A DNA stretch of 64,000 nucleotides from Nereocystis luetkeana (Eukaryota > Sar > Phaeophyceae > Laminariales > Laminariaceae), in NCBI GenBank assembly GCA_031213475.1, contig JARUPZ010000009.1:10573601-10637600 (forward strand), given 5' to 3'. This document shows, in pieces, positions 861 through 55,870 of this stretch (position 1 is the first letter of the stretch; each line of letters begins with the position of its first letter). Made by a program: the position numbers and the translations under genes. The notes under the pieces are model-generated. The model did not search any database, was not told the origin of the DNA, and worked only from the letters and a program-made list of their open reading frames with translations.

Positions 861-1315
861 TAGATACTTGTATAACCAAGACAACACACAGACTGAAATG
901 AAGAACGGCACAAAAAAAACGTCAATAATTCTAAGTTCGTTCGAATACTCGCATGCGAGTACGAGTGTACCGTCCGCGAAAGTGCAGTCGTAAATTGGGT
1001 AACTTTTCAGCTCTACGATCGTATGCCTTTGGTACGTACGTACCTGGTATGGTTTAGGTACCCTGCATGATATATATGATACGAGGTACCAGGGTATCTA
1101 TTAATATGATCGCTCTCTGTATCAGTATACCAACCAGTATCAGAGCGTACTAATAATATTAAATATTAATACTGTATCAGTATTTTTCAGTAGACGGTCA
1201 TCAGTATTATAGCAACTATACCAACTATTATCGTTTTTATTAATGTCAGGTATTTTTAGACTTTTCGATTCTAACCAATACCTGGTGTGATAGGAAATAG
1301 TACTGACAGCAGTCC
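861..1315. other. no gene seen
   Basis: AT-rich sequence with TACCTGGTA at 1041-1049 and GGTACCAGGGTATC near 1083. No coding signal. Confidence 0.6.
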
Positions 1316-1319
1316 TTAA

Positions 1320-1755
1320 CCCTTTGAGTACCCCAGTCCCGTTTTGGGTACAAATCGCTTGGATTTTTTTTTTTTTTTTTTTTTTTTCCATCCCATTTAT
1401 TATCTTTGCACATATTCTTCTCACTCTCCTTCCAACTCGTAACTCAGATCCGGGGTCACATAGCAGGCTCTTCTACCCCCTTCCCGCTACGGTACGTGCC
1501 TTCATTTTTATCGCGAGAAGATTTCAGCCTTTTCTTCCCTCGTCGACTCGCATCGAATTGTGCCTACCCACGCTGCAAGGCGCTCTCAACAATTGAATCC
1601 CTTTTTTTATTTTTGCAAATAAAGTCAAAGTCCGACCCTCCTGGGGCTCGAACCCAGGACTCAAACAAGTAGAATTCGAGGTTAACCACTTGAACCACCG
1701 GGGCGACCGGTCTAGACTGGTATGTCCCCTCATCGGGACTGCGGTACTAAAAGGG
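1320..1755. mobile_element. family B hairpin MITE, split by a SINE
   Basis: Left arm 1320-1363 (after TTAA at 1316-1319) and right arm about 1709-1755 belong to one ~90-bp hairpin. The SINE 1364-1708 sits in its loop. Confidence 0.85.
1364..1708 (-). mobile_element. tRNA-derived SINE (copy 2), inserted in a family B hairpin
   Basis: Minus-strand full-length copy: poly(T) at 1364-1387, the common body, B box complement near 1650, head ending at 1708. The flanks on either side are the two arms of one family B hairpin, so this SINE inserted in its loop. Confidence 0.88.
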
Positions 1756-2040
1756 TTGGCAATCAATTAATTTGTCCTTCCACCAACTTTCGCATACAGC
1801 AGCAGTAGTTTCATACACCAGGCGTAATATTAAATACCCTGGCACGCGATATCCACACATGGACTACTGCTGTCTATTCTATCTATTAACAGTTGTAAGG
1901 TAATGAATAGTGTAATAACGACGTAACTTCAGCATGATATCAGTGATACATAGATGAGATGAGATGATCAACACCAATATCTGCCAGTGTCTCTTAATCA
2001 ATATCTACATTTCCCCACCTACCCAGGGACCACCTCCCCG

Positions 2041-2429
2041 ACCACCACCACCGCCACCACCACCACCACCACCACCACCATCAACCACCGCCATCTCCGT
2101 GGACCGCTTTCTTGCTGCTTGCCGCTTACCTGGTACTCTTTATTGCTGTGTCGCAGATCGCACCTCCTCGGTGACCGCAGGAGCTGGCACCTGGCACGTC
2201 GTGACACCTCCGGCGGGCACCCAGTTCCACGATGGGAGATGTCGCGCTTCCCTCGCGAACAGTCTCCTCGGCGGACGAGGGGGGTGGCGGGGTGAGCGTC
2301 AGCGTAACCAACACCAACAGGAGCAAGAAGAAGAGCATCATCAGCAGGAAGAACGGCAGCAGGAAGAACAACAACAACAACAAGAACAGCAACAACAACA
2401 ACAACAACAACGATAACGACAAGATCTGC

Positions 2430-2469
<40 letters not shown>

Positions 2470-2501
2470 GCAGCAGCAGCGGCGGCGGCGGCGGCGGCGG
2501 C
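2041..2501. repeat. ACC, CAA and GGC triplet repeats
   Basis: (ACC)n at 2041-2083, (AAC)n at 2367-2468, (AGC)/(GGC)n at 2468-2501. The last two fall inside the candidate exon. Confidence 0.85.
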
Positions 2502-2660: not shown

Positions 2661-2851
2661 GTAACGTACTTGATCGACAGCAAAGTAGAGCCGTAAGTTG
2701 CTGCGCCTATTTTTGGGAGGAAGTGTAGCGAACGTTTTGTAACATGGGGTGTATGCAAAAAAACATGCCATACGTCGTATTTATATAGTGTGAATGACCG
2801 AAAAGGTGCCTACATTTCCGCCAACGAAAGTCGTGTACAACTGCTGTAATA

Positions 2852-2957
2852 TCACGGGGGACCATAGTTAAGAGGACCTATGGTATACATGAAAACGTAT
2901 ATATTTGACCATTTTTTCGAACACTAATTTAGTCCTATTAACTATGGTCCCCCGTAA
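2852..2957 (+). mobile_element. family A MITE
   Basis: Starts TCACGGGGGACC (T-to-C variant of the end) and ends TCCCCCGTAA; flanked by TA on both sides. Confidence 0.9.
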
Positions 2958-3376: not shown

Positions 3377-3481
3377 TTACGGGGGACCGTAGTAAATAGA
3401 ACCAAATATTGTTGGTAAAAATAGCGAAATATATACGATTTTGTGTCTACCGTAGGTCCTATTTAATATGCCCCCCTGTAA
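3377..3481 (-). mobile_element. family A MITE, left half of a dimer
   Basis: TTACGGGGGACC to CCCCCTGTAA. Only TA (3482-3483) separates it from the next copy. Confidence 0.9.
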
Positions 3482-3483
3482 TA

Positions 3484-3588: not shown

Positions 3589-3589
3589 C

Positions 3590-5112: not shown

Positions 5113-5224
5113 TTACGGAGGACCATATTAAATAGGACCTACGGCCCACACAAAAAACTACCAGGTATGTATTTTTATATTTTTACTGGCGATATTTGGT
5201 CCTCTTTATTATGGCCCCCCGTAA
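5113..5224 (+). mobile_element. family A MITE with an internal TACCAGGTA
   Basis: Standard ends. At 5159-5167 TACCAGGTA replaces the TA seen in other copies, making this copy longer. Confidence 0.9.
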
Positions 5225-5836: not shown

Positions 5837-5838
5837 TA

Positions 5839-6955: not shown

Positions 6956-7442
6956 ATAATATCTACAGCAGTAGCCGTCGACAGCTCATTGCGACATCGA
7001 TTATACTCGTATTATACTGGTGCTGGTGCGCGCTCTCCGTAGAAGATGGATAGGTAGGTCGCTATTCCTGTGGGTGATTTTCCAAAGAGGTTAATACTCC
7101 TGAGCCAACTAATATCTACTTGGTACAACAGTAGCCGTCGACAGCTCACTGCGCCATCGATTACACTAGTATTTTACTCTTTCGGTCGCTACTCCCGAGG
7201 TGGTGTTTCGAAAGAGGTTCATATTCCTTGGCCAAATAATATCTACAGTAGTAGTAGTCGTCGCCAGCTTCATTGTGCCATCGATTATGCTAGTATTTTA
7301 CTGGTGCTGGTGCCCGCTCTCCGTAGAAAATGGACAAGGCCACGATACTTGCCGCTCGCTCTTTTGGTCGTACACCCGTGGGCTCCCAAAAGGTTAATCT
7401 TCCTGAGCCGACTAGTGTCTAGTCGGCGATTCCTAATGAGCC

Positions 7443-7791: not shown

Positions 7792-8500
7792 AGCCAAACC
7801 AGAACCCTAACGGGCTGCGGCTTGTACTGTTGCTGGTGAACGCTCTCCGCAATTGTTCTGCTCTTCAGCTCGCTATACCCTTGAACCCCTATTTTTTTGT
7901 TTACTATTCGTTCAAGCCAACTTATGAGTATAGTCGGCGACTCGAAATCAATCACAGCCAACTGACGGCCGACCCTTTGCATTGCTCTTCTGTAAGATGA
8001 TTCATATAATAGCGCACGGCGGCTCTCCGCCCGAGGTGCTCGCTGTTTAGGTCGCTACTCGTACCTGCGAGGCAAAATATCCGGCCGTTAAAATAACATC
8101 TTGTCACGGACAACTCAAGGCCCCCTCGTTAGCACGAAAATTTGATGTATATACATTACATATCATACTGTTGCTGGTGCAAGCTCTCCGTAGAAGATTG
8201 ATAAGACCCTCTCCTGAAAAGATTGATAAGACGCTCTCCTCAGAAGGCTGATGATGCCGATACCGCGCTTGGTCGCTCTTCTGCGATAGGTCGCTACGAG
8301 TACACATCTGGAGGTTTCCAACAGGGTCAAAACTATTCTGTCGCCGACTACTATCTATTATAAGTACCAGGTAGCCGGTAACTTGAAAAAAAATATATAT
8401 ATGTATATATTTTCGGTCAGCGAACTTACAGCCCACATCCCTAAACATCTAAACAAGATGAGATACGTTTGCACATACCCGTGTGTCCCCGGTGCACGCT

Positions 8501-9331: not shown

Positions 9332-9446
9332 TTACGGGGGACCACAGTAACTAGGACCGAAATATTTTGCGAGTAAAAACAAGGAAATATATACCTGATA
9401 GGTCTTTGTGTTTACCGTAGGTCCTATTTACTATGGTCACCCGTAA
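9332..9446 (-). mobile_element. family A MITE with a TACCTGATA insert
   Basis: Standard ends; at 9393-9401 it has TACCTGATA, a one-base variant of the TACCTGGTA insert. Confidence 0.88.
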
Positions 9447-10640
9447 ATAGTCTCCCTTCTTTTGGCAAAATTAATGCGTTTCTAGCCGACTGTACAGCAG
9501 TAGTACGTACCGCGCAGTCAGTCGTCAGTCGGCGGTCGGCGGCCTATTGTCGGGGCCTTGCTGGGGAAAATTCCAGCGGGATTTTCACGCGAAATGTTTT
9601 TTGTTTCCGTTCCCGTGCAAAAAAAAGTCGCTCCCCCCTGGTATCATCCAAACAGTTCCCGAAGAAGTCTTGTGATATCTAAAGCCGACTTATCAGTGGT
9701 GAATGGTCGGCAGTCGGGGGTCGGCGGCTTGTTATATATGGGGTCTGGCCAGCCAACCCGTCACCCTACTGTAGCTATTGGGGTGCGGGTTCTCTTGTGG
9801 GGAACGGGCCGCGTTGAAGTACCAGGTATCAACTTCATGTACTGCTCGTACTGCTGCAGTGTACGATATCGCGTTTTCGCGTTCATGGTGCCTGTATGCA
9901 GACTTTCGTTTCGGCTAGTGCCTGTGTGCTACCAGGTATTCGATACCGGTCCGCATTGTATCGCAGGATCTGACCTGCCGATGCCCATCCTCTCCTGTGA
10001 TGTTGCCGCCCGCTTGAACCGAAGTCCTGCGCGCGTTTTTTGGTGTGAGAGTACCGATATTTCGAACGATCAACAATTTGCGGTACAGAGCGCTCCGTGT
10101 ACTACCGTGCAACGCTCGTTTTGCGACGTGTCTGCCTGCGACTGCATGCCTTCCCTTTTCACCTACGGCTCCCCATTTCCTGCTGTACAAACAACGTGTG
10201 AAACTGGCCTGGCTCATCCCTGTTCTCTCTCTGTACGCACAAAGTGTGTACGGAACCTTTCAATTTTTTTTTTTTTTGTTGTTGTTCATGTGCCACGTAT
10301 TCACAGGTTGGTTCGCTACTTGCCGATAACTTGCTGTACGAAATTCCAATAACGGGAAGTACACCCCCAACTGCCGACTTTTAGGAGGGTGGAAAAGCGG
10401 GGCTCGCAAGCGTTACTATAAGTAGCTCAAGCGGCAGAGTAGCAAACAGTGCCAACACCGAAATAAGACCAGGTATATATTTATATATATAGCTGACGAA
10501 CGGTAGCCCCCCCGAGGGCACTAATTGCAACGTGAGGTTATGTATCGAAATATCTCGGTGCAATACGTAGGGATGGTAGACATTATCGATACAGTGGTCG
10601 GCTAAGGGCCTAAAAGTGCCGATTTTTGGCCACCTCTCGT
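9447..10640. other. no supported gene
   Basis: A 264-codon open frame (9558-10352) lacks recognisable motifs, is Cys/Val-rich and carries two TACCAGGTA copies (9820, 9930); I treat it as chance. GTCGGCGGTCGGCGG-type short repeats occur near 9525-9545 and 9710-9730. Confidence 0.5.
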
Positions 10641-11444: not shown

Positions 11445-12551
11445 TATACCTTAGCGTATGCCTCTTTACACTTGGGGGCTACATTAGGCGTTCATGTCTT
11501 CTGCCTTACAGACGCTAGAACTGTTCACGACGGTACTGTGTATACCGCGCAAAACGTTGAACTCACGCAGGGGTCCAATCGCTTTTCAGCGCGCCCGTTC
11601 TCTCTTCGACAACGATCAAGTAAGGGTTGCTCGAAATTTGCAACACTCTCTTTTTTTTTGGTTTTCCGGAAAAATAGAAGAAATGTAGGTTTTCGGTCCC
11701 CCCCATTTCTTTCCGAAGACACCTTTTGCTGTTTTGTTGGTTTTCTCGGGAAAAACCATCGTCTTTTTGTCATGAGTCATGGATAGTAATTGTCTTGGCG
11801 TAGTCATACCAGCGGTATGATTTCTAGTTTTGACAGCCCTGTGTGGTGCTGTTAGATATGCCGGGTAGCCACACGAGTCTTTTCCTGCGTGCATGCGCTG
11901 CACGTTCGCTGCCGGTAGTGTCTGGAGAAAATCATGCAATTTATGGTGAAATTCGTGTGCAACATTTCGAAACCATGGAACCATCGACGGCAGTCGATAC
12001 GGTATCCAGCGCTACGGCGGTAGTTAAACGGTTGCTCTGGGTGACACGTAGCTCACACGAGTTGCTACTAATAGGTGAGGTTGTCGTCTTTTGTCTTGCG
12101 TGCCGCCCGCGTTATTATTTACCATGGTACACCGGAATGTTACACCTACCTGGTACTGCGGCTGTGTATATATATACCAGACCAGGCACCAGGTATACGA
12201 TAACTAAAAAAAATAAATGTCTATATAAAATGTCCGATTTTTCGCTATGTTCCTGTCGATACATCGAAAGTGCGAGATTTCGATAGAGGGATGCTGTCGA
12301 TACGATATATATCCCCATCCCTAATATTAATATTAATAGTTGAACGACCCTTATGGGTGGGTGCGTGGGTGGGAGTGGGAATGTTCGTTGGGTAGCCGGA
12401 GCGGTTGATTGTGGACGACGGACTGACGACACACGGAAAGAAGCTTTCAAGCACGACCCGCGACAGGCGACAGATAAAAAGTACTCTCATTTCTGTTCTC
12501 GCGATTCACTCGTAAATCCGAGTACACGACGAGATGCTACTTCTAGGATTG
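11445..12551. other. no supported gene
   Basis: Unremarkable sequence with short open frames on both strands, a TACCTGGTA (12147) and a CACCAGGTATAC cluster (12172-12196). Confidence 0.5.
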
Positions 12552-13346: not shown

Positions 13347-13460
13347 CCTATTGCTGGGGACCATAGTAAATAGGACCGAGTATTGGAAGCAAAAACAGGA
13401 AAATATGTACCTGGTAGGTTTTTGTGTGTACCGTAGGTCCTATTTAATATCCCCCCCCCC
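13347..13460 (-). mobile_element. family A MITE, decayed ends, TACCTGGTA insert
   Basis: The core GGGACCATAGTAAATAGGACC is clear but the outer ends are eroded. TACCTGGTA at 13408-13416 replaces TA. Confidence 0.8.
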
Positions 13461-15430: not shown

Positions 15431-15605
15431 TTCATGTGAAAACACGCACCACAACGCAAAAAAGGCGGCTTTCGAGAAATATCTCGAGATCTTGCGATGT
15501 ATCATATCTCGGAGAGATCCACCTGTCAATTATCTCGAGATCTCCCGATGGTCCCGAGATCCCTGTCAAAGATCTCGCGATCTTTCCGTGATCTACCTGG
15601 TACTA

Positions 15606-21366: not shown

Positions 21367-21936
21367 TAGTTGCGTTTGCAGACGACGGGGTTGCAGCGCG
21401 CAGCTTCTGCTCTGATCAGTCGTGAAAGCCTTTTTGCCCGGAAGAGGAAAGCCAAACGGAAACCTGTGCACGAATCTGTGATGTCTCCCTTCGGCGCCTA
21501 CTCCAGCTTGTCAGCTCCAACCACCTGGCATCTGCTTCAGTTTTGCTAGCCATTGCTCCTGGCTGTTGCCCGAATTCTCAAACCGACGCACACGACAAGA
21601 GGGCGTATGACGCATACCAGGTATATATACATATATTAGGTATATATATATATCTATACCAGGGTATTTTATATATTATATATATATTGTGCGTCAGTTG
21701 CAATTATCCTGCTGCGCGAGTTGTCTACGTAGCAGGGACATAGTCTATTCATGGTATCTTCGTTGCCACGACAATGCCCCTGCTGCTGTTTGGTGTCGCC
21801 CTCCCGTCTGCCTCGTGATCGCTGATCTCTCGATCTGTTTTCTGTCACATTCGAGGTCGAAATGTATACCAGGGTACACCGCACTCGGGCGCATATTTTT
21901 GAGTGTTTCGGACATGTATACGTTGCCGGAGATTAA

Positions 21937-22036: not shown

Positions 22037-22125
22037 ACCAGAGCTGCGAGGTCGAGGATTTCGTCCAAAAAAAAAGTACCAGGTAACGTTTTGCAGGCTG
22101 TGTGTGATCTCTTCGATCGCGCGGC
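22037..22125 (+). repeat. dispersed repeat E, copy 1
   Basis: AGCTGCGAGGTCGAGGATTT and GCTGTGTGTGAT match 52095-52150. This copy has TACCAGGTA at 22077 in the intervening part. Confidence 0.6.
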
Positions 22126-24596: not shown

Positions 24597-25601
24597 TGCC
24601 TACAAAGCCGATACGGCAGTATAGGCCCGTCAATAAGAAGGTGCCCAATAAGAACATGCTGCTCACTTTTGGGAGAACGCTAAGAAAATTGGGCGTCGAA
24701 AAACGGCTCGGCGGTAAACTCTGCACTAAATCCTACCAGGTATATAGTAGCCTGTGCTCAAGGCTGCCTGAAGATGGCGCCCCAATAAGAATCTCAGGCT
24801 TTTGCCCATGTCAGGTGTTTCTGGTTGGCGGACCCGTAGTAGACGCAAGAACAAGGATTTTTTGTAGTCTGTAGGGCCAAAAAAAATCGTCTCTCGTCTA
24901 AAACACGCCTACGAGTCGTAATGCAGTTCTATGCATATGCGTATGTATGTATGTATGTATGTATGTATGTATGTATGTATGTATGTATGGGTGTATGCAC
25001 CATGGGTATTTTCCTGGTAGATATATACGGTAGTACTACTGCCGCCCGTATTTTGGTGGTGTACGTGATGTGGTACGGTTATTTACAGAGCCCCGTCGTA
25101 TCCGTAGTACCGCCCCCTCATGTACGTACCGGTACGGCCGTGCGCGTGTAGCAGTACCAGGTGTGATAAGTAGCGCGTCCTGTACCATGGTTATTTCGTG
25201 TCTTTTCCTTCGTTCTCTTTTCATCGAGACGTTTTTTTTTTTTTTTTTTTTTTGCATTTTCACCTCTTATGTTTTTCGTCCGCGTGCTCTTATGTACCTG
25301 GTACTCACTACCCTGGTACCTGGTATTGTTTTTTGCCCTCGTCGTATGGTGCGTGCTCCTTTCCGACTCGACGTGACTCGAAGATCTTGTAAAACCGCGA
25401 TAGTAGTCCGTCTGCCTTCTTTCGCGCTGGACCAATACGTGCCCACCCCCTTTCCTTTCTTAGAGGCTCGTCGTAGCCTTTCCCTCCCTTGGCACACCCT
25501 CGTTCACCATAGACTACCTGATGCCAGGTGTACCAAGGGTATTTGGAGAGAATCAGATATTGATACTATCAATAAATGTATAGCAGTACGTAACGTAGGT
25601 A
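24597..25601. other. no supported gene
   Basis: GTAT microsatellite, a poly(T) of 23 at 25231 and three exact TACCWGGTA copies (24734, 25295, 25317). Confidence 0.5.
24944..24988. repeat. (GTAT)n microsatellite
   Basis: About 11 GTAT units. Confidence 0.9.
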
Positions 25602-39200: not shown

Positions 39201-42200
39201 GCTACTATTAATGTTATATATAATACCAGGTATTATTATACGGAGTGACCATTTGTTCCTTCTACCGCATTATGCTGCATGCAGGTGACCGTGAACACGT
39301 GGCTCGGAGGTCGGAACCTCCCAACATGGGTTTTCACGGGCATTTTTTGACGCAACGATGTTAGCGGGTCTTTCAACTGTTGTTTTTGTTGTTATTGTTG
39401 TTGTTGTTGTTGCCTCTGAACGACGATTTTCAACGAACCTCTGAACGACGATTTTCAACGGACCTCTGAACGACGATTTTCAACGGACAGGTGAACCAGG
39501 ACAAGTTCAACGCCGCGGTGTGCGTCGGGTCTTGCGGGCTGTACCGCAGGCAGGCCCTTGAGCCCTTCGGAGGGATGGCGGCCATCGCTCATTCGGAGGA
39601 CATGTACACCGGCTACAAAATGACAACAACGGGCTTTTCGGTGAGCACTACTATATAAGCGCTTTTACTTTTCGTTTTCGCTGTTTTTCGTTATTACGGG
39701 GGACCATGGCTAGTAGGACCTATGGTACACATGAAAACCTAAATACTTAACCATTTTTACTAACAATATTTGGTCCTATTAACTATGGCCCCCCGTAATA
39801 GTGCTGTGTTGAATTATGTATGATACACGATTTTGTTTTTGTATTTTTTGTTTTTTTCTTGTGTTTTTTTTTTTTCACCATGGCGAGTTGTACGAAAAAA
39901 AAACAACGTAAGTACGGCACGGACCCTGAAATACACCAATACGCCCATCGCAGATCTACCCCCACCTCCCCTGTACGCCTCATTTATCATTTAGCTTCTT
40001 GAAGCCTTAACCCCCCCCCTCCCCTCCCCTCCGAGGGTCTATGGACATACGACTACGGCCATGCATGAGATCGAGTTCATATCTCCCATCGAGTACACCC
40101 CTCCCCCCCCCTCTTGGGTTGGCGTCGGTTGGCCACGACGCTGTAAAACACGCCTCTCACTGCGTGAGCTAGACAGCCAGGGTACCGTTTTCGTTTTTTC
40201 TTGGCGGTCACCACGGCTGGCGGTCGAGTTAGATCATTTTTGTGCGGGCAGAACCTTCGCTCCGCACACGGGAGATGCTCGTATCACGTAGTGTGTATAC
40301 GGTGAGGCACCCACGAGGCAGTTACAAAGTAAAACCCATTGCTGTCTCTGGAAGTGGCCACACCAGAAATTAAATCGATTCATTGACGCTGTTCTCCATA
40401 TGCAAGAAAATCCGCCTCAAAAGCGTTTCTTGAAATAGTAGGATGCAGATCACCCCTCATGCGACTCGTCCAACACCTCACGACGCTTCGCGCTTGGTGC
40501 AAGCAATGTCTGCCTGGTCGGTGCAAACCCGACATGCCCCGTCCCGGCACCTCTCGTATAGAGTGCCCCCCCCCCCCCCCCCCTCCCCCCGCCCGCCGCA
40601 CACACCTGGTTGTCGAGTTAGATCATTTGTGCGAGGTGAACAACCGTTACTCCGCACAAGTGGAAATGATCGTATCACGTAGTGTTCAAGGTAAGGCACC
40701 CAAGAGGCAGTTACCTAGTACTCCCATTGCTGTCTCTGGAATTGCCTACGCCGGAAATTAAATCAATTCATTGAAGCTGTCATCCGTATGCAAGTCCGCC
40801 TCACAAGCGGTTCTTAGTAGGATGCAGCTCATCCTTCATGCGACTCGCCAGACACCTCACGGCGCTTCGCGCTTGGTGCAAGCAATGTCTGCCTGGTCGG
40901 TGAAAACCCGACATGCTCCGTCCCGGCATTGTAGGGATGACAGGGTCCATGGTCATACGACTACGGCCATACATGAGATCGAGTACATCTCTCCTATCGT
41001 GTACCCCCCCCCCCCAACCCTCTGCCGCTAGTTTTGGCGACCTCCCCCCCCCCCCCCCCCCCCCCCCCAATATACGCCTTCTTCAACTCCTTATTGCGGT
41101 ACACCAATACACGTGCTCCATCCCGTATTTGTTGGGATTCGAGGGTCTACGGGTGGACGACTACTGCCATGCACGACAGGAACCCCCCACCCCGCCCCCC
41201 CCTCTTATGCCTTCCGCCCCCCCCCCCCACCCCCGCTCCCCCCCCCCCTCCCGCCCTCGCTCTCCTGTGCTCTCTTTGCCACGCCTCTCCCCTCCTCCCT
41301 CCAACGCCCCCCCCCCCCGCGCCCCTTCCTCGACCAATTATAGATCAAGTACCTGCCGCTGGTTCTGGCGATGGGAGCCTGCCCGGATGATGCGCAAACG
41401 TTTTTCATGCAGCAGTACCGTTGGTGCATGGGCAGCGCCACTCTCGTGCTCGAGAAGGAGTTCTGGCGGTCGAGCATCTCGAAGATCCACAAGCTGTGCT
41501 TCCTGAACGGGATGCTGTACTACGTCGCCACGGCACTGGTGCGTGCGTGCGTGCGTGCGTGCGTGTGTTCGTGAAACGTTCGCGGGGAAACAGAAGACAC
41601 GTATGCACACGCACGTGCGCAGTCGGCGCCAATGGAGTTCGTTCGATCTACTGGAACACCGATGAATATATATATATATATATATATATTTTCGCAGGGA
41701 ACATACAGAAGTTTATCAGGACCAAACGTCATCGGTGAAAGTACTGGATATACTACCCGGTGTAGCTTTTTTTGTGTGTACGATGGGCTATGATCGGGAC
41801 CAAATGTGCTTGGTAAAAATCATATCGCGTATGTAGTTGTTCGTGTGTACAGTGGGTCCTGATTGCAATTGTCCCCAGGATTAAATGTTGGTTGACTTTT
41901 GCGGCGCACCGTAGCAATCAGGACCGGATATGCTTGATGAAAATGCTGGATTTTATACCGTGGCTTTTTGTGTGTACAATGGATCCTGATTAGTATATGG
42001 TCAGGATCAGATATGCCAAGCGTCAAAATACTGGAATACCTGGTATGTATACATCTTTTTTTCTTGTACAATGGTCCCCGAGTAACAGATTTTGGTCTAC
42101 TTTTACGGGGCACCATAGTAATCAGGACCAAATATGCTTGGTAAAAAATACTGAAATATATAGTTTTTTGTATGCACAACCCGTCCTGATTACTATGGTC

Positions 42201-43841
42201 CCCAGTAATAGATTATGGTTGGCTTTTACGGGGGACCATAGTAATCAGGACCAAACACGCTTGGGAAAGATACTGGGGTATGTAGCTTTTTGTGTGTACA
42301 ATGGGTCCTGATTACTCGTATGGTCCCCCGAAAAACTGAAACTAAGAAATGTCGGTTTGACTTTTACGGGGCACCATAGTCATCAGGACCAAATATGCTT
42401 GGGAAAAATGCTGGAATATGCAGCTTCTTGCATGTACAATAGGTCCTGATTACTGCAGTAGCAGACACCAGTCAAGTTGCGTATTAAGCCCGGTGTTCTT
42501 GATGCTGATGGAGTTCGGCATGATAACGACAGGCACAACACCTACTCGCAGTCGATGTTTTGATGGAGGTTGATTTGATTCGGATGAACAGCGTTTTTGT
42601 GTATGCTGTACCGCACGGCTGCGGCGCTGGTTGGTGCGTGTGTGAAGGGTGGTGGTGGTTGTGTTGTTGTTGGTACTGGTGGTGCTGCTGGTGGTTAGTG
42701 ATGGGTTAGTGATGTGTTTGCCCACGTAAGCAGTAAACGAGCTCCCCCCCCCCACCCCCGCTGAGCTCTCCTTCGCGTGAAGCTGTCATCCACATGCAAG
42801 TCCGCTGCACAAGCGGTTCTTACTGTTAATAGGATGCAGCTCACCCCTCATGCGACTCGCCGGACACCTCGCGTTCCGCTTCGCGCTTGTGGCAGGCATT
42901 ATATCTGCCTGGTCTTTGAAACCCCGATATACTCCGTTCCGGCATTGTAGGGGTGCGAGGGTCCATGGTCATACGACTACGGCCATGCATGATAATGGGC
43001 ACCCCCCCCCCCCCCCTTCAACAAGAGCGTAATATGCGCCCAAGTGTTGAGGGTGTCCTTGTTGGGAGTAGGGATGATGCTCCGTCTCGATAGGGATGCG
43101 TGGCCCATGGTCAAATGACTAAGGCGACAAACGAACGAGTACCGCCCCCCCCCCCCCCCCCCCCCCCCCCCCCGTTCTCTCTTCTCCGCTTCTTTGTCTT
43201 GCTCATCGATGAAAACCTGAACACCCCCCCCCCCCCCAATGCCCGCCCGCCCTCTCCCCCATCCCTCCCCGCCGCGTCGTTGCCTTGTGGGACGACGAAA
43301 CATTTTTGTTGTTGTTCCCCACAGCTCGTCTTCCTGGCGCCCGTCCCAATCCTGCTGCTGGTGTGGATGGAGTCCGACGGCGTGCTGTGGTACCACTCCG
43401 CCTTTGCCCTCCCGTCCATAGTCTTCGCGGCGGTGTTCATGCCGTTCTGGTCCAAGCAGCCCTACGGCATGGCCTGCCACAGGGTCAAGGTTTTGCAATG
43501 GTGAGAAGCGTTTTTTTTATGTTCTGATACCAGGTACGCTTCTAGTTTTTCGTTGGCAAAAGGCGCTTTTCGTTAAATGTTTGGGGGTATTTTTGGTTAA
43601 TGTGTTTTGTTGTACCGTACGGATACACGTTTTTGGGCCATAAGACAGCATGGCCTGCCAGGGGGTCAAGGTTTTGCCAGGGGGTCAAGGTTTTGTATTG
43701 GTGAGAGGCTTGCTTTTTTTCGGGTTTTAACGGTCTGTTTTGTTCGTTTTGATTGTTTCGTTTTGTTTTGTTTGCTGTGTTCTGTTCTGTTTTCGTTTGC
43801 GTTGTTATTTCTTTTCTGATTGTGTGTTCGTTCTGTCTGTA

Positions 43842-43893: not shown

Positions 43894-45673
43894 CGTCCGT
43901 CTGTATGTATGTCTTTTTTGTTTGTTTTTTCCCCAGCTACGCCCACATGTACGCAGTCAAGGACCGTCTCATGGGTCGATCGGCGCCTTGGGTCCCGTCC
44001 GGTGCTGGTTCTTCCAGGTAAGGAAGCATAATATGTGCACGGCGTCACTCTTTTTTGTATGCTCTACGTTTGTTTGTTTTATTTTTGTCGCTTCTGTCGT
44101 GTTTGTAGCCTCTGGCGCGGTGCCAGTTCTGTGTTAGTTGTCCCTTTTTGTCAGCTTCCGTCTTGAGCTTGTTTTTTTTTTTGTCATGTCCGTCTTCACC
44201 TGTGTCCCGTTTGGCTTTTTCCGTTGTTTTTTGTCCCGTTTATCTTTTGCCGCCTTTTTTTTCCCGTTTTGTCGTTCCCGTTTTTTTGTCCCGTTTTGCC
44301 GTTTTCCGTCTTTATTGTCCCGGTTTGTCTTTTCCCGTCTTTCTTGTACCGTTTATTTTTTCCCGTCTTTTTTCTCCCGTTTTGTCATGTCCGTTTTTTT
44401 TTGGCTCGTTTTATCATTTTCCGTCTTTTTTGGTCCGGGATGTCATTTTCCGTTTTTTTTTGTCCCGTTTTGTCATTCCCGGTTTTTCTGGTTCCGTTTT
44501 TTTATCATTTTCCGTCTTTTTTGTCCCGGGTTGTCTTTTCCCGTCTTTTTTTTGTCCCGTTCTGTCATTATTGCCGTTTTGTACTTGAATACCAGGTATA
44601 TACATCTTCTGCGTGTTGTGTTTGTTGTTGTTTTTTGCCGTTTTTTTGTTTGCGCTTTAATTCCTGTTTCTCCAGCCGTTCTGTCTTGGTCTGTCCGTTT
44701 TGTTGTTGTTGGAATTGTTTGACGTTAGTAGTGGGGAGGAGAGAGGCATTCCGTGCTTGCTCTAAACAATCTCGAGAGAGAGCGGAGTGCAGTCGATGGA
44801 TGGCCTGTTTCCATTATAATCCTTCCCAACATACATGGAAACCCCTCTTTTTGTGGTGCACAAATAGCGCATGTTTGCTCTGCACTTGGTCTACACAAGA
44901 AATGTCTTTGGTGACATTTTTTGGTCGTACTGCCCCCCCCCCCCCCCCCCCAGTTTTAATGTGCCTAGTACAATGGTAACCACGTCATGAGCGCCCAACT
45001 GTTGGTGTCATATTTGCGATCGGAACGGTGCTCCTTCTCGAAAGGGATGGGTGGTCAATGCTCAAATGACTGAGGCAAGCGAAGCTTGAGTGCCCTCCTG
45101 GGAAGGTCTATGGTCACACATACGACAACGCCCATGCATGGCATCGAGTAACCCCCCCCCCCCCCGTTCGAAAAGTACCTGCATTCGGAGTAGGAACGGT
45201 ACTCCGTCTCGAAAGGGATGCGTAGGTAATGGCCAAATGACTATTACGGGGGACCATAGTTAACAGGACCAAATATTCTTAGTAAAAATGGCTAAATATG
45301 TAGGTTTTTATGTAAAACATAGGTCCTATTAACTATGGTTCCCCGTAATAGGGCAAGCAACACATGCGTCTATGGTTATACGACTACGGCCATGCATGAG
45401 ATCGAGTACATCTCTCCTATCGAGTACACCCCCCCCCCCCCCCCCCCCCCCCCCCACCGCTACGGCCATGCATGGTACTGAGTACCCCCCCCCCCCCCCC
45501 CCTCCATGATACACCTAAGGTCTGCAACAAATGAGCTCGTACACGCCCACCCCTTTGTTTTGCCTGTGGTGTGGTCTCAGGGCGTCCTCTGTGACATACA
45601 AGTCGTCAATGCGATTGTTGATTGGGTGGAACCTCCTCATCACGGCGCTTATCATCGGAGGTTCGGCATGGAG
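27469..45673 (+). CDS. cellulose-synthase-like processive glycosyltransferase (GT2), nine exons, 3' incomplete
   Basis: Join of 27469-30294, 31183-31342, 35912-36163, 36869-37134, 39491-39640, 41344-41538, 43325-43500, 43937-44017 and 45581-45673. All junctions keep one reading frame and total 4199 nt, about 1399 residues. Visible GT2 hallmarks in order are VFLPICKEP and VLDDG (Asp near residue 1062), ILDADFCP (DxD near 1111), SEDMYTG (near 1205) and QQYRW (1241-1245). These bind the UDP-sugar and metal, supply the general base, and hold the acceptor glucan in CesA/BcsA-type enzymes. Membrane segments lie before the core (exon 2) and after it (exons 6, 7, 9). The family makes beta-linked polysaccharide at the plasma membrane from cytosolic UDP-sugars; cellulose is the likely product but another beta-glucan or mannan cannot be excluded. 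The first ~940 residues are low-complexity and unusual. No stop codon or final exon was found after 45673. Confidence 0.88.
30295..31182 (+). other. synthase intron 1
   Basis: Contains one family A MITE (30597-30700) and, near its 3' end, C-rich homopolymer tracts (30898-30930, 31021-31110) that appear to act as the pyrimidine tract. No other coding sequence seen. Confidence 0.6.
30597..30700 (-). mobile_element. family A MITE (intron 1)
   Basis: TTACCGGGGGCC to TGCTCCCCGTAA; TA on both sides. Confidence 0.9.
31183..31342 (+). CDS. exon 2: N-terminal transmembrane pair
   Basis: Begins after the acceptor CAG at 31180-31182 and ends before GTGAGC at 31343. It encodes HETDRVGLICFALVSFF and then two hydrophobic stretches ending in VIVYMACHC, the membrane segments that precede the cytosolic GT2 domain in this superfamily. 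It is 160 nt long and leaves one base, which completes a Tyr codon with exon 3. A 130-bp C-rich tract with long C runs lies just upstream. Confidence 0.85.
31440..31720. repeat. (GGT/GTT)n tract in intron 2
   Basis: About 280 bp of GGT/GTT/GTC triplets, 60 bp after the exon 2 donor; open in several frames on both strands. Confidence 0.9.
31741..31985 (+). repeat. dispersed repeat D, copy 2 (intron 2)
   Basis: Same order of words as copy 1, diverged. No TIRs or tail recognised. Confidence 0.65.
32296..32403 (-). mobile_element. family A MITE (intron 2)
   Basis: TGCACGGGGGACC start, GGTCCCCCGGTTAA end. Confidence 0.85.
32594..32704 (+). mobile_element. diverged family A MITE (intron 2)
   Basis: Recognisable arms (GGGCCGTAGTGAATAGG and the matching CTATTTGCTATGG) with several changes. 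Confidence 0.7.
33366..33480 (-). mobile_element. family A MITE (intron 2), 10-bp internal insert
   Basis: Standard ends; CACTTCGGAG is inserted in the centre near 33423-33432. Confidence 0.9.
33706..33811 (-). mobile_element. family A MITE (intron 2)
   Basis: Left end CTGCGGGGGGCAAT, right end GGTCCCCCGTAA. Confidence 0.85.
34692..34788 (+). mobile_element. family A MITE lacking its left end (intron 2)
   Basis: Begins near GGTAATAGGACCTATGG; right end GGTCCCCCGTAA intact. Confidence 0.8.
34960..35365 (+). mobile_element. family C LINE ends, three tail modules (intron 2)
   Basis: Three successive modules ending in C runs at about 35070-35078, 35235 and 35348-35364, each with the ACGACTACGGCCA and GAGATCGAG words. 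Confidence 0.8.
35648..35761 (+). mobile_element. family A MITE with a TACCAGGTA insert (intron 2)
   Basis: GAATACCAGGTAGGAC at 35666-35681 stands where other copies read AATAGGAC. Confidence 0.85.
35912..36163 (+). CDS. exon 3: start of GT2 catalytic domain (first Asp motif)
   Basis: Acceptor CGCAG at 35907-35911, donor GTGAGT at 36164. It encodes WGEDFCPD, then VDVFLPICKEP, the usual GT2 start strand, and VYVLDDGASDEV with the UDP-binding DD at 36109-36114. The length is 252 nt and the phase matches both neighbours. A degenerate copy of the acceptor and first codons lies upstream at 35777-35800. A very long G run follows the donor at about 36217-36248. Confidence 0.9.
36574..36679 (+). mobile_element. 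family A MITE (intron 3)
   Basis: TTACGGGGGTGCC to GGTTCCCCGTAA; TA on both sides. Confidence 0.9.
36778..36858. repeat. (CCCGA)n microsatellite before exon 4
   Basis: About 16 pentanucleotide units with GGCCC variants, ending 10 bp before the exon 4 acceptor. Confidence 0.9.
36869..37134 (+). CDS. exon 4: GT2 DxD motif
   Basis: Acceptor CGTAG at 36864-36868, donor GTGAAG at 37135. It encodes KKAGNLRYAFA, then AIAILDADFCPRADFL with the metal-binding DxD, then LQTPQFFRFK and QEFFYRMVQ, all typical of the CesA/Csl core. The intron end before it consists of a CCCGA pentanucleotide repeat (36778-36858). Confidence 0.92.
38290..38394 (+). mobile_element. family A MITE with a double TACCAGGTA insert (intron 4)
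   Basis: Eroded ends. CTACCAGGTACCAGGTATAT at 38321-38340 replaces CTATAT of other copies. Confidence 0.78.
38722..38822 (-). mobile_element. diverged family A2 copy (intron 4)
   Basis: GGCAGGACCAAATACGCT and GGGTCCTGATTTATTTGG match the A2 variant of the intron 6 array. Confidence 0.65.
39413..39490 (+). repeat. 3x 25-bp repeat ending at the exon 5 acceptor
   Basis: CTCTGAACGACGATTTTCAA is repeated three times; the last unit ends in GGACAG, the splice acceptor. Confidence 0.9.
39491..39640 (+). CDS. exon 5: GT2 catalytic-base motif (SED)
   Basis: Acceptor GACAG at 39486-39490, donor GTGAGC at 39641, exactly 50 codons in phase 0. It encodes VCVGSCGLYRRQAL, a substrate-loop region, and AHSEDMYTGYKM, the TED-like motif whose Asp is the general base. 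The acceptor lies at the end of a 25-bp sequence repeated three times. Confidence 0.92.
39694..39798 (+). mobile_element. family A MITE (intron 5)
   Basis: TTACGGGGGACC to GGCCCCCCGTAA; TA on both sides. Confidence 0.92.
40035..40110 (+). mobile_element. family C LINE tail (intron 5)
   Basis: GGTCTATGGACATACGACTA to TCGAGTACACCCCTCCCCCCC. Confidence 0.75.
40207..41015 (+). repeat. ~400-bp tandem duplication of a long family C segment (intron 5)
   Basis: GTCGAGTTAGATCATTT at about 40217 and 40612 opens two units that share GATCGTATCACGTAGTGT, CCATTGCTGTCTCTGGAA, GAAATTAAATC and TAGGATGCAG, each ending in a C run (40566-40583; 41003-41014). Confidence 0.8.
41090..41320 (+). mobile_element. 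family C tail and C-rich DNA before exon 6
   Basis: ACACGTGCTCCATCCCG, GATTCGAGGGTCTACGGG and CATGCACGACAGG match the tail module; C runs follow up to the exon 6 acceptor. Confidence 0.6.
41344..41538 (+). CDS. exon 6: QxxRW motif and interfacial helix
   Basis: Acceptor TTATAG at 41338-41343, donor GTGCGT at 41539, 65 codons in phase 0. It encodes ACPDDAQTFFMQQYRW, the QxxRW motif that binds the terminal disaccharide of the growing chain, then CMGSATLV and the start of a membrane helix (LCFLNGMLYYVATAL). The donor runs directly into a GTGC microsatellite. The acceptor follows several hundred bases of C-rich DNA. Confidence 0.92.
41700..42463 (-). repeat. tandem array derived from a family A-like MITE (A2)
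   Basis: Five to six head-to-tail units. Full units begin GACTTTTACGGGGCACC-like at 41897, 42093, 42222 and 42359; spacings of 129 and 137 bp fit one unit each and 196 bp fits one and a half. Each unit is a MITE-like core (CATAGTAATCAGGACC ... GGTCCTGATTACTATGG) plus a ~25-bp linker (GATTATGGTTGGCTTTT). The linker is shared between units, so the array arose by tandem amplification, not repeated insertion. Confidence 0.85.
42778..43172 (+). mobile_element. family C LINE ends (intron 6)
   Basis: Two modules: CAAGTCCGCTGCACAAGCGG to GGGCACCCCC (43017), then GTCTCGATAGGGATGCGTGG to CGAGTACCGCCCCC and a ~30-nt C run. Confidence 0.82.
43325..43500 (+). CDS. exon 7: C-terminal transmembrane segments
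   Basis: Acceptor CACAG at 43320-43324, donor GTGAGA at 43501. It encodes LVFLAPVPILLLVW, a short loop and ALPSIVFAAVFMPFW, two membrane helices, followed by a cytosolic loop with HRVKVLQ. It leaves two bases; with exon 8 they make a Cys codon. A degenerate duplicate of its last ~30 bp with its donor lies in the next intron (43648-43708). Confidence 0.88.
43501..43936 (+). other. synthase intron 7
   Basis: Contains a duplicated copy of the exon 7 end with a usable-looking donor (to 43700) and a CTGT microsatellite (43844-43905). Confidence 0.7.
43844..43905. repeat. (CTGT)n microsatellite (intron 7)
   Basis: About 14 units just before exon 8. Confidence 0.9.
43937..44017 (+). CDS. exon 8: cytosolic loop YAHMYAVKDRL
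   Basis: Acceptor CCCCAG ending at 43936, donor GTAAGG at 44018. It encodes YAHMYAVKDRLMGRSAPWVPSG, matching the conserved loop (KDR..., WVPTG) between late membrane helices in CesA/chitin-synthase-like GT2 proteins. It is 81 nt long, with one base at its start completing the split Cys codon and two left over for exon 9. Confidence 0.85.
44205..44580 (+). repeat. ~30-bp T-rich minisatellite (intron 8)
   Basis: TTTTTTGTCCCGTTTTGTC and TTTTCCGTC alternate a dozen times, keeping all plus-strand frames open. Confidence 0.75.
44975..45505 (+). mobile_element. family C LINE ends (intron 8), one split by a MITE
   Basis: Four tail modules ending in C runs, the last at 45485-45502, 80 bp before exon 9. 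The MITE 45244-45348 interrupts one. Confidence 0.8.
45244..45348 (-). mobile_element. family A MITE in a LINE end (intron 8)
   Basis: Splits AAATGACTA/GGGCAAGCAAC; the empty site AAATGACTAAGGCAAGC is at 27244. Clean TA duplication. Confidence 0.94.
45581..45673 (+). CDS. exon 9: further transmembrane segment
   Basis: Acceptor TCTCAG at 45575-45580, donor GTGGGT at 45674. In the phase required by exon 8 it encodes a short polar start and then MRLLIGWNLLITALIIGG, a clear membrane helix where one is expected. Poly(C)-tailed LINE ends lie immediately upstream (to about 45502). The exon leaves two bases, so at least one more exon must follow; I could not identify it. Confidence 0.72.
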
Positions 45674-46620: not shown

Positions 46621-47196
46621 GACGGAGAGACGCTCGATCGTTTGTATTCCAAAGCGCCTGGTACCAGATTTCATAACTAGATTTTTCATGCGTTATCAGG
46701 TACCAGGTATTTATTTTGCCGAACTTCCTTTCACGAAGTTTTTCATCGCAAATGTCATTTGCAATTTATTTAGAAAAAGTGCAGTTTTTTTTTTTTTTTT
46801 TGCAATTTAGGTAAATCGCAAAACTCAGTGCAATTTTTGTTTTTGCTTCCGATTGGTTCGGACGCTTTTCATTTGCGCTTGGCATTTTGCGAATATCAGT
46901 TTACAAGAATGTTTCGTCGCCAAATTTGATTTGCGATGTTTCGTTGCATTTTTTCGTTTCAGCTTTCATTTAAGAGTATATCTATAGTACGTACCTACCA
47001 GGTATCATATTTCATTGCATTTTTTTTTTCTTCATTATTGCAGGTCTTCACTTCAAATTTCATCCCCCCCCCCCCCCCCCCCCCCGAAAGAACGGCTGTG
47101 TTTCTACTATGTGTTCTATTATACTATCTAGTGTACTGCAATGAAAATACGTTTAGGTGCGTTGGGTAGGATAACGCCTCCGGTAGAGGAGAGGGA

Positions 47197-51580: not shown

Positions 51581-52094
51581 AACGTTTGGATTTTGGGCCT
51601 GCAATGGTTTCGACTGACCGCTGACGGGGGGCTTCGCAGTCCAGGAAAAACTGCACCCGGGTATATTTGCGACTCCGTTTTGCGTTTTTTTGTTTTGTCA
51701 TTTTTATTTTTGTTCGTTATAGATATACCAGGTATATGCCTCGTATAGTAAGCGCTCCATGAGATTTGTTCTCATTGGGTGTGTTGCCTGCGCGTACAAT
51801 TTTCGTTTTTTTACACTCCGGTTACTTCGGGTGAGGTATTTTCGAGCTACCCCCCTGCAAACCGTACAGTAGCATGACTCTAATGAGATAATAACGGTCA
51901 AAACCTATACGCTTGCTGGCATCGGTGCAGTGCGTGCACACGCACGCGCGATAAATCGACCGAGTGGCGCCACTTGTGAGGATCTACCGAAGATCTTTCA
52001 CGGCATACACGTCCCTGATGATGTCTACATACCTGGTACCTGGTACCAGTACTTCGTATATACGTCGTATTTTATCGAATAATACAAAACAACA

Positions 52095-52165: not shown

Positions 52166-52767
52166 CACGGGTTTTACATGACTTTGCCTGCAGGGTATAC
52201 AGCAGCAGTCCGACCACGAGGAAGACATAATCTGAAGCTGCAGAATTCAAATAATGGCGTCTACGAGTACTTACTTGAATATATATATTGATAGGATCTA
52301 CTGTAGGTCGTGTTACCGGGCACTCAGTGATCTGTAGATCTTTCACCTCAAGTACATTCCTGATATGTGCATACTTCGTGAAAAAATCTACCTGGTAGGT
52401 CGTGCTGGCGGGCGGGGTCTCGTGTGATCTTGCATGGTCTCCATGCCTGGGATGTTCCGCCCACGATCTGATGCGCGTTTGATTTCGTGAGATAAAAGGA
52501 ACCCCTGGGCTCTTCATTTCAAAAGATCAGTCCACCCGCGCCTATATCCAGGGACAGTCCCATGTTGTATTGCTACGATATCCGCCCTTCAGATATTCGT
52601 TACATGCCCCACCCCTGCTCAAAGCCCTTCATTCGTGGGTCAATCTACCCCTATAGCCGCGCGCTTTTTTTTCTTTGTGGGATAATCCACCTATTTATGT
52701 GCACCAAGAGTACACCCTTCATTTTTGAAGGATAATCCGCCCCCTACTACGCCCCTGTTCTAATTTA

Positions 52768-52942
52768 TCAGCTCATTCATGGCAAGGATTGGCTCAATCG
52801 CAAGGAGGAGTACACAACTCGGGGCTAGAGTTACCGCCAGGCAGAGGGACAAAAGTAGAAAGCCAGGCACGTATCAGGTACCAGGGTATCAGTTGTCCAG
52901 CCCCTAAAAGAAGTGAAACATGAGTCATTCCGTCCTCTCTCT
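52768..52942 (+). repeat. repeat R upstream of the LTR element
   Basis: Matches 63637-63785 in the same orientation: CAGCTCAT, GATTGGCTCAATC, ACAACTCGGGGC, AGTAGAAAG, ATCAGGTA, AGAAGTGA. Decayed. Confidence 0.65.
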
Positions 52943-53250
52943 TACTCACCACGCTGGAACACAAAGGCTCCCGTTCGGGGAAGTACACAACTCGCCGCAT
53001 CTCCGTAGAATTCATGCAGTCACACCTATTAATATATAGTTGAAATTGACGCAAGTAGCCGTAAACTCCTACAGCCTCCCTGCTTGCGACACTTTCATGC
53101 GGTACTAAGGCAGAAGAATCTATGACGTGCTGGATCCACAATAAACCGGAACTCATGAACCTCATGATGTGACACTGGAGATAACAGTGTTACGCTCCCC
53201 ACTTTTTGTTTCCTACGCCTACTACCAGTACGAGGTAAACAGCCACGAAC

Positions 53251-53750
53251 TGTTGCGGCGGAGGGACATGGGAGCAATCAAAAGTACGACAGGTCGAGGC
53301 ATGCAGCCACGAGTTCGTCGGGTGCAAAGTAGAGGCGGATCACCCTATATGGGTGTGCGACTCTGTGGGCGTGGGAATTGCGTTTCATTCACCAGACGGT
53401 TTCAGTCTGGTGAATGCAGAACACCTCACACCAAGGTGAACAGCTCATGCAGTACCGAGGCCTACACCGAGTGTTTTCAGACGCTACCAGGCAAGAAAGA
53501 GGAAACGTGCAACATCTAAAAAAGTTAACCCAAGAACTAGGTACTAAATAACAAAAGGCTAAACCGACTGCCCTCTCGCGTAAGCGCCTCATTACACGGA
53601 TCTGCATCGCTCGTAATCGGGAGGTTCGGTCATCGTTTACTACGCCCTAAGTCCGAGCAAAGCACTGGAGTCACTTTGACTGCCAACGGGTCTAACTTAC
53701 GAACTGTGGAGGCAAGTCAGGTGACTGTTGCCGGGGAGCTTGCCGTAACA
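53251..53750 (+). repeat. 5' LTR
   Basis: Begins TGTTGCGG, ends GCCGTAACA, with TG...CA termini. It aligns throughout with 63016-63507. A perfect 12-bp stem occurs at 53386-53416. Confidence 0.92.
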
Positions 53751-53768
53751 TGGTGATCCCTGGGAGAC
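53751..53768 (+). other. candidate primer binding site
   Basis: TGGTGATCCCTGGGAGAC starts immediately after the 5' LTR; TGG pairs with the CCA end of a tRNA. The tRNA was not identified. Confidence 0.65.
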
Positions 53769-55870
53769 CGACCCAAGCAGGACCAGGAGGTGGTGATAGG
53801 GGTATGAGCACCATGCAGGTCGTAGAGCAAGTCACGCGAGCAATAGATGCTACGTAGAGGGCTGGGGTCTGGAAAAAAAGTCGAAGAGGTTCGGCCAAGA
53901 GATGGGATCTGATGCGTACGTAACATTTGTTTTGTGAACTTAGTGCAATCCGATAAAGCTTCTGGTCGGGTGAAGCTTTGGCTTCGCGAACTGGTGGAAC
54001 CCGAGGCACAGTTGTAACTCGCCGCACGCAGCTGGAAGACGATCGTGACCGCCCACCAGTAGATGCGTCGAGGGGTGAGTGCTTCTCGGGGTTCTCGGGG
54101 ATAGCGCTCGGGGTGACCGTGGGCACTGAGGAGCAGGCGTACTGAAGTGCTGTTATCTGTGCACTACGTAAAACATCGCATAAATGGCGACCTACAACCG
54201 ATACACTTGGTACGAAAATGAAAATCAGCTTTCATCGTGAATTGGTCATAGATGGTGTTTATAAGAGGGGCCTGTGCGGATACGAAAGGCGGTTGGGGAG
54301 AACGAACGAGCCCACACAGAGACCGCGCGTAGCTGAACTGTTTGCCGTGTTGTGCTGCCGGCCGAGTCAATGAAGCAACATGCTGATGACGACGAGGCAT
54401 TGAGCTATGCCACGTGAATAGGAGCAAAGCTGCCATACTCGGACTAAATACCAGAAGTAATACCAAATATGCATATTGGTCCACGATAAATGGTGCAAGA
54501 TACCACTGCCACTATCATAGTAAGAATATACTATTAACATACCTACATACGACCGAGGAGCGGAGGATCTCAGCTGGTATTCTGAAGCACAAGTACGCGA
54601 CAACAGTAAGGGGGACGCTGGCAGATAAGCGTCCCCCGGCCCCCGGGTTTCTGGTCGGTCTAATCTCTAGACGTTTCATTTGAGCAGAAAGAAGCATCGC
54701 CATCTTTTGACACGCTGCGTTTAGAACTTCGGCTGGTTCGTGCTTACCAGAGAGCGACGGTGACTCGAAAGAGGTTCGTCGCAGCAGCTTGTATTTCTCT
54801 CGAAATTGATCTTCCGCCCGTTCTCAACAGAGGCCTACACCTCGACATTAGAGGTGGTCCAGTGGTCGAAATTGGTCGAAATTTAGGGTGCATATAGAAC
54901 AAGAGGTGACAGGCTGATACGTTCGAGGACGGGGGTGATAGGCTCCTGTGTTTGAGGGTGTACCAGGTATGAGGTATCCTCATACACGTCAGGAGAAGGG
55001 GGGGATACAGAAATGATCGTACAAGTACGTCGCCGTTGTTGTCCGGACGTTACATTCCCTCCACGTGGTAGCCACATGATCATGTCAGGTTCAAGCCGGT
55101 CGCCCGCATGTTTGCAGTTGATCAACACTGCTTGCCGGGGAAACGTGAGCTCGCTTGGTGATGGGGAAACGCATGGATAAAAACAAGTACAAACATACAT
55201 ATACAACACGCAAACGAACAGGTGCACTATTGATCCAAGATAAAACCGCCGGAATATCACAGTTATCCCGATCATCGCTGTTGCTAAAAAAACAGCCAAG
55301 AACGAAACACAAACGAAACAAGGACGGAAGGAAACAAGAAAGGAAGAAGAAAATATATACGTACAAGCAGAAGTAAACCAGAAGGAAGATCATGTCGTCG
55401 CAGCGGCTATAAGCCTCTGTAGGCTGTATGTGGGGGAACACCCCCACCCCCACGGCCTCGACGTCTCCCCCAGCCGGTTATGGCCATGAGGGAGGAGATT
55501 AGCACATCACAGGCCGATGGTGCAGGAGACCCGACCCCGCCGCCTCCGCCGTCCCGCCAACAGCTCCCGGTGCGGTCGAACTTTCTACTGCCGCCCCAGC
55601 TGAGACCCTGGTCCCCTGCCCCGTCAGTCGTGGGAGAACCGCAACAACAGTAGCTTCAGGCGTAGCCACAGCAGATACAGCCTCAGCAGCCCCCATCTTG
55701 TCGCTCCTGCCTTTAGCTATCGGGGGGAGAGCCTCATACCCCTAGTACCAACAGTGGCCACAGCAGATCCAGCTCCACTAAAGCCCCGTCGGGGTTTTGC
55801 ACCTCGTACATTAATTACGTACGCGTGACGAGAGCGTCGTGTTGTGCGCTGCAGCGACCGCCACCTAGTA
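53769..55870 (+). other. retrotransposon leader
   Basis: About 2.1 kb with no recognisable domain. It contains a perfect 10-bp hairpin at 54610-54637 and one TACCAGGTA (54961-54969). Confidence 0.5.

Follow-up and report, generated by a model that had tools for sequence, protein, structure and literature searches.

The 64-kb window analyzed here, 64,000 nucleotides of the kelp Nereocystis luetkeana (contig JARUPZ010000009.1, positions 10,573,601 to 10,637,600), carries a synthase gene, copies of a miniature inverted-repeat transposable element (MITE) that we call family A, and the nine-base motif TACCWGGTA (W, A or T). The motif marks a seven-base insertion, CCWGG plus a duplicated TA, found at TA sites throughout the genome, and we propose that it is probably the excision footprint of a transposon.

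Coordinates in the window are given without strand. Exact TACCAGGTA fills the central TA of a family A MITE (MITE 5094-5240, motif 5159..5167) and another of the family's TAs, AATA|GGACC (MITE 35637-35777, motif 35669..35677). It also lies at 8365..8373, followed by GCCGGTA, and at 21615..21623, with variants TACCAGGGTA at 21657 and 21867; further exact copies are at 9820..9828, 9930..9938, 22077..22085, 24734..24742, 33144..33152, 39224..39232, 43528..43536, 44590..44598, 46996..47004, 51726..51734 and 54961..54969. Exact TACCTGGTA fills the central TA of MITE 13335-13481 (13408..13416) and adjoins the outer end of a MITE starting near 15603 (15594..15602); it is also inserted at 1041..1049, with variant TACCAGGGTA next at 1087-1096, and occurs at 2127..2135, 12147..12155, 42037..42045 and 52389..52397. 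A cluster at 25295..25325 combines TACCTGGTA at 25295, TACCCTGGTA at 25309 and TACCTGGTA at 25317, the latter two in tandem. Tandem doubles are found at 38322..38337 (TACCAGGTACCAGGTA, central TA of MITE 38257-38410), 46694..46709 (TATCAGGTACCAGGTA, one change in the first unit), 52030..52045 (TACCTGGTACCTGGTA) and 52872..52888 (TATCAGGTACCAGGGTA, one change in the first unit and a six-base form at the end). Altered forms include the one-base variant TACTTGGTA at 7117..7125, the decayed insert TACCTGATA at 9392..9400 in the central TA of MITE 9316-9466, and the six-base insert form TACCAGGGTA at 38832..38841. A different 10-base insert, TACACTTCGGAGTA, occupies the same central TA in the family A copy 33350-33499 (33421..33434) and is perhaps the scar of another TA element.

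The 29 exact motifs of the window compare with 0.43 expected from dinucleotide shuffles, none of 100 of which reached 29. An earlier note, made from the letters of this stretch, had listed 29 sites against a chance expectation of about 0.5; the expectation holds and all the sites exist, one of them at 39224 and not at 39234 as written. The genome-wide excess that it had proposed to check was borne out as well: in one 465-Mb genome TACCWGGTA occurs 182,395 times, against 1,744 for a control consisting of the same pattern read backwards, and the extended CTACCWGGTAG 2,378 times against 152. The center base in the window is A in 18 motifs, T in 11 and never C or G. In 269.5 kb chosen independently of the motif, TACCWGGTA (68) far exceeds TACCSGGTA (S, C or G; 5) and outnumbers every other nine-base palindrome compared: seven of eight occur 0 to 5 times, and the eighth, TAGGWCCTA (34), belongs to the family A MITE. 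Because TACCAGGTA and TACCTGGTA are reverse complements, that is, one sequence in two orientations, the W center alone is no proof of mismatch repair.

We compared filled with empty repeat copies by cutting each site to one TA, fusing its flanks and aligning them to other copies (27 window sites, doubles merged; match counts include both strands of the palindromic family A MITE, of which 42 loci were aligned). The joined flanks matched 35 times within the window for 5159, 37 for 13408, 30 for 35669 and 37 for 38322, and in a wider set 35, 32, 26 and 35 matches, respectively, ran ungapped within 8 bases of the junction. Near-identical copies thus hold just TA where others hold CCWGG plus a second TA, which is the gain that the earlier note had described; four of its five examples stand, while the fifth, 42037, has no spanning partner. 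For 20 of the 27 sites no spanning copy was present in the window; the matches of 15594 were merely partial and lay at the end of a MITE, and those of 24734 and 52389 were short and led to a filled site. Outside family A no pair of the 27 sites shares more than 24 of 50 flank bases.

Filled and empty states also coexist in other repeats (L numbers denote further loci of the same genome). The exact motif is present in one copy and absent from the other between L004 and L019 (93% over 163 bp) and between units of a 528-bp satellite in L006 (97.5% over 162 bp). This satellite, at about 2700-8900, consists of two related half-units; at corresponding TAs one has TACCAGGTA and its partner TACCAGGGTA, and each type also includes empty units. 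The six-base form TACCCTGGTA distinguishes L005 from L014, and TACTTGGTA distinguishes L015 from L020 and L018, as well as window position 7117 from its empty copy (6619-6732, not family A). All these pairs align gap-free once the flanks are fused at a single TA. The pair L002 and L013 is ambiguous, the empty copy having no TA at the site. These copies show insertion at TA with TA duplication, as Tc1/mariner footprints do, and their coexistence speaks against the outcome that the earlier note had named as fatal, a nine-mer in every copy of each repeat at the same site. The insert is only 5-7 bases long and is no MITE, since a MITE would move as one unit made of terminal inverted repeats and the part between them.

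Family A MITEs have been filled repeatedly. At the AATA|GGACC position, 1,366 exact filled copies exist genome-wide and none in the control; among 100 matches listed and counted by eye, the center base is A in 31 and T in 69 (p 0.0002), so that a single TA has received the scar in both orientations. For the central TA, AAAACC|TACCWGG with A, C or G as the next base has 373 matches and its control 29. Of 100 matches listed we examined 60, namely the 19 in which A or C comes next and 41 of the 81 in which it is G, and recognized 38 by eye as family A (a crude rule found both halves in 34 and the left half alone in 2). The right MITE half directly follows the scar in 35 of these 38, L037, L079 and L085 being rearranged, and the center base is A in 35 of 38. 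Extra scars occupy other TAs of the same MITE in L037, L043, L050, L062, L079 (decayed), L076, L078 and L089, and the MITE end in L052. In the damaged MITE of L037, most of whose right half is lost, telomere-like CCCTAA repeats come after the scar; such filler, along with the missing flank, is compatible with repair of a break. A younger-looking subfamily of family A has no window copy with CCWGG at the central TA, its look-alikes elsewhere (L056-L095) carrying CCAGGG, and the order of the bursts could be dated. A 17-base piece of the MITE had no exact match in a viral contig collection.

The scar shows a target preference. Pooling both sides of 65 sites, five of them in family A, gave 130 half-flanks in which A adjoins the TA only 6 times against a background of 19.6% (p 1.3e-6), T is favored at +1, +3, +5 and +6 (at +6, 52% where the background is 26%), and position +7 is A or T in 81% against 53%. 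This symmetric preference around TA, a mark of Tc1/mariner footprints, points to a TA-targeting transposase: its two-fold form, reaching 7 to 8 bases out, matches a dimeric integrase at TA, and neither slippage nor base-calling error would yield it. Tandem doubles make up 6 of the 65 sites, and eight pairs spaced exactly seven bases apart occur among the first 100 places listed genome-wide. Since mixed doubles, A then T (TACCAGGTACCTGGTA), exist in L037 and L016, doubling is not slippage alone. Clustering through local hopping was considered and set aside for the window, where close sites do not exceed chance once tandems are merged (gaps of at most 120 bp, 2 against 1.6 expected); at the other loci close pairs do exceed it (2 within 25 bp against 0.15 expected, share of shuffles 0.0085).

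The scar has length forms and probably decays. CCAGG dominates; CCAGGG, seen in the variant TACCAGGGTA, occurs in 9 distinct contexts against 0.59 expected, and CCAGGGG sits at the MITE center in L070, L077, L086 and L095 and within a double in L090. The variants TACCAGGGTA and TACCTGATA named in the earlier note are real. In 276 kb, 82 one-mismatch forms stand beside 74 intact motifs, with about 53 expected, and 44 of the 82 are transitions, a share as decay of old scars would give. Altered scars, together with doubles in which one unit has changed, indicate that scars persist and mutate. A second footprint, TACTGCAGTA, was considered and rejected, 10 of its 14 occurrences being one satellite. 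In the window and L005-L024, TACAGCAGTA (17 contexts) and TACAGTAGTA (8) are over-represented between TAs whose flanks are unrelated, and may be decayed trinucleotide repeats or another scar.

We favor, with fair but not firm confidence, the reading of TACCWGGTA as the excision footprint of a cut-and-paste transposon of Tc1/mariner type. We infer an element that would insert at TA, duplicate it and, on departing, leave a few terminal bases, its ends beginning CCA and probably CCAGG. Along one route (a), a cut five bases in would leave protruding CCAGG ends that pair through CC:GG, the A-A mismatch being resolved to A or T. Along another (b), an ordinary shorter cut would leave more of one end (three to five bases) than of its counterpart (two bases), giving CCA+GG, CCAG+GG, CCAGG+GG and their mirror forms. 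Route (b) would most simply explain the longer forms CCAGGG and CCAGGGG; both routes predict ends beginning CCA, and we would not choose between them. Good TA targets would be hit again, producing tandem doubles and several filled TAs per MITE. The element itself may be rare or extinct: we propose that scars far outnumber elements because it was excised often and seldom copied in repair. The earlier note had arrived at the same type of excision, and the TA insertion and duplication, the genome-wide enrichment, the filling in both orientations and the symmetric target preference all agree with it, although the transposon was not found. The insertion itself, its scale, its target rule and its length forms are firmly established.

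The failure to find a parent is one of several results that weigh against an excision footprint. No parent element with CCWGG or CCA inverted ends appeared in the sequence scanned, in a partial search that would have missed an element with few copies, an extinct one or one of another transposase group. TACCWGG half-sites lacking the following TA, which might mark element ends, number 76 in about 254 kb, near chance (4 x 254,000 / 4^7 = 62); 13 of them continue GTAT, which is the six-base form, and no common extension is visible besides this scar and a TACG microsatellite. A 295-kb scan for inverted CCA ends gave pairs of which the best 8 of 9 lie between family A copies, and inverted pairs with CCC, CCT or CCG ends, the CCC pair at window 1565 and 7586 set apart, delimited no recognizable element. 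TACCAGGGG followed by A, C or G, an end that route (a) predicts with longer cuts, occurs 1,255 times genome-wide (its reversed control, 23,174, is inflated because GGGGACCAT is MITE sequence), and its commonest extension is protein-coding. No large insert was seen by eye at the filled central TA of any of the 38 family A copies. The equal remains that route (b) predicts are near chance (CCATGG 1 and CCGG 4 in 269.5 kb). Neither route explains why the A/T state differs between sites (31:69 at AATA|GGACC, but A in 35 of the 38 copies at the central TA) or why T follows the A-centered scar 37 times and lies on its other side 22 times at the 65 sites (p 0.013). Finally, some same-site fillings may be inherited.

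The leads to an element with 5'-CCAGG termini flanked by TA, for which the earlier note had proposed a search, proved false. The one inverted pair with CCNGG ends, TACCCGG...CCGGGTA in L018 (2166-5303, 17 of 20 end bases matching), is not a transposon and was rejected as parent because homology to L008 continues beyond the TA and the arms resemble tails of short interspersed nuclear elements (SINEs) in inverted order; its failure belongs with the points above. The repeat copies in question (L018 2166-5305, inverted there, and L008 4649-4844) end in (ACA)n and look SINE-like or like the tail of a long interspersed nuclear element (LINE). TACCAGGGGAGCGGGGAGCGAAATATTAC, which together with close forms makes up 9 of 100 among the matches listed, was dropped as an element end, the one copy examined being an open reading frame ending VVLVGDFNSR, which we take for a LINE endonuclease motif.

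Among transposase domains, no match to DDE_3 (PF13358) was found at E 0.001 among 30 candidates scored, and DDE_1 gave 28 matches in the genome. Six DDE_1 loci with 1.5 kb flanks showed no inverted CCA ends; three viewed more widely comprised one delimited element and two loci without inverted ends. The element, at L033 516-4829, is Tc1/mariner-like, 4.3 kb long, bounded by TA and by inverted ends CGCGACAKCACTTAAGAA, with the DDE_1 match inside, and its ends begin CGCGACA, not CCA. DDE_1 matches with a score identical to that of this element occur on contigs C2, C809, C872, C1099 and C1378. L034 and L035 hold DDE_1 transposase-like frames without nearby inverted ends, LLLMDGCSS in L034 corresponding to LLLLGSHSS in L035. 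In the window, exact 18-base inverted ends (CCCACGCTGCAAGGCGCT) with TA stand 6 kb apart at 1565 and 7586 and are perhaps two repeat copies.

The near-chance half-sites and unoccupied MITEs suit a different process. In it, an integrase or transposase specific for TA would either insert nothing more than a short piece of an element end (CCAGG, CCAGGG or CCAGGGG) or break the TA, the piece then being added during repair; no large element would have been present at most sites, and the seven-base unit would itself be mobile. A uniform scar in 182,395 copies, half-sites near chance and 0 of 38 MITE copies occupied would all follow. We nevertheless consider such direct micro-insertion unlikely, since target preference and scar form already follow from ordinary cut-and-paste steps and the parent search was incomplete; to our knowledge, no process joining only short end fragments into TA has been described. 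A bolder version, in which a transposase freed of its element keeps joining end stubs (CCAGG, CCAGGG, CCAGGGG) to TAs, giving some 180,000 near-identical nano-insertions in 465 Mb with no transposon ever at the sites, seems to us doubtful to at least the same degree. Should it be true that no element was ever at the sites, this would be a new way of inserting DNA.

Inheritance has some evidence in its favor: the motif could have been passed on within repeats, or selected as a regulatory or protein-binding site, the empty copies having lost it. A resemblance is seen among several CCAGGG-bearing MITE copies, and four window copies are filled at the same central TA in the same orientation. For these four, four changes are required on the tree and 0 of 200 bootstrap trees unite them, though a single origin is not rejected (approximately unbiased test, p 0.17). 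As a general account, inheritance is improbable given that six seemingly unrelated repeats, variant forms included, exist both filled and empty with differences of exactly seven or eight bases, and given both orientations at one MITE TA, several filled TAs per MITE and the 20 of 27 window sites with no repeat partner there. More improbable still is programmed removal, by which an element present in the germ line or at a life-cycle stage would leave a seven-base scar in the sequenced tissue; it would account for scars without elements and for the TA boundaries, but altered scars and doubles with one changed unit speak of persistence and mutation. Paramecium internal eliminated sequences are TA-bounded and are excised precisely, leaving one TA, whereas two TAs and 5-7 bases remain here, and we know of no report of programmed elimination in brown algae. 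CCWGG is also the Dcm methylation motif, and we attach next to no probability to a sequencing or assembly artefact linked to it, as a base-calling error does not add a seven-base unit that includes a duplicated TA, nor is it guided to its targets by bases lying 6 to 8 positions off. Recursive splice sites (AG|GTA) were set aside, the motif being palindromic and found in both orientations.

Elsewhere in the window, none of the 29 sites falls in the five exon pieces of the synthase (borders placed by eye), in agreement with the earlier note. Among organism-named relatives of this synthase, the six top-ranking ones come from brown algae (Ectocarpus twice, Choristocarpus, Scytosiphon, Hapterophycus and Sphacelaria), followed by a rotifer, which by itself makes a brown algal host very probable. 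A Pfam search with ten window reading frames gave just one weak match, to glycosyl transferase family 2, under the cut-off. The last 8 kb (56001-64000) hold no TACCWGGTA, are higher in G+C and contain reading frames that by eye resemble retroelement parts, as if this part were perhaps younger than the scars.

If TACCWGGTA sites are footprints, they form a fossil record of the jumps of a rare or vanished element that can be counted to the base, and would thereby allow transposition to be measured where copy number does not rise. The 182,395 intact scars would represent about 1.3 Mb of added DNA, each a frameshift when in an exon, and excision scars could outnumber their element by orders of magnitude. 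We found no report of a TACCWGGTA scar in the literature searched, the coverage of which was partial, so that its absence from the literature is unproven.

The Sleeping Beauty (SB) footprint, TAC(A/T)GTA, is likewise a palindrome with an A/T center, and SB and mariner footprints share with the scar the TA target, the TA duplication and the short end remnant. SB and mariner elements are first nicked three bases inward from the end, and the overhang so formed turns into the footprint (PMC7827188); unlike this three-base remnant, the one here measures 5-7 bases, counts 182,395 scars and has no parent found. In another brown alga, Ectocarpus, 17 Mariner-Tc1 families are described, together with an autonomous element of 4.4 kb (PMC12477816), and a TA-ended element of 4.3 kb is also present in this genome; the ends of the latter begin CGCGACA, not CCA, and the word "footprint" is absent from the main text of that article. 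Passer, of the pogo group, also leaves cut-and-paste scars of a Tc1/mariner relative, but just 0 to 4 bp long (PMC9976928). In rice, Mariner insertions are 2.6-2.8 times as frequent as excisions (PMC4423477), whereas here scars exceed any candidate element by a very large factor. A likeness to route (b) is found in the Stowaway/Osmar5 footprints of grasses. Their TA-flanked remnants are unequal, one end contributing 2-4 bp and its counterpart 1-2 bp, about six bases altogether at most, and one TA may also be re-used after excision (PMC1925063). Set against these published values (3 for SB, 0-4 for Passer, about six for Stowaway), of our remnants of 5, 6 and 7 bases the seven-base one lies beyond the range. 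The grass scars vary from case to case (PMC1925063), while one sequence dominates here, an odd uniformity for which transposase or repair in this alga would have to account.

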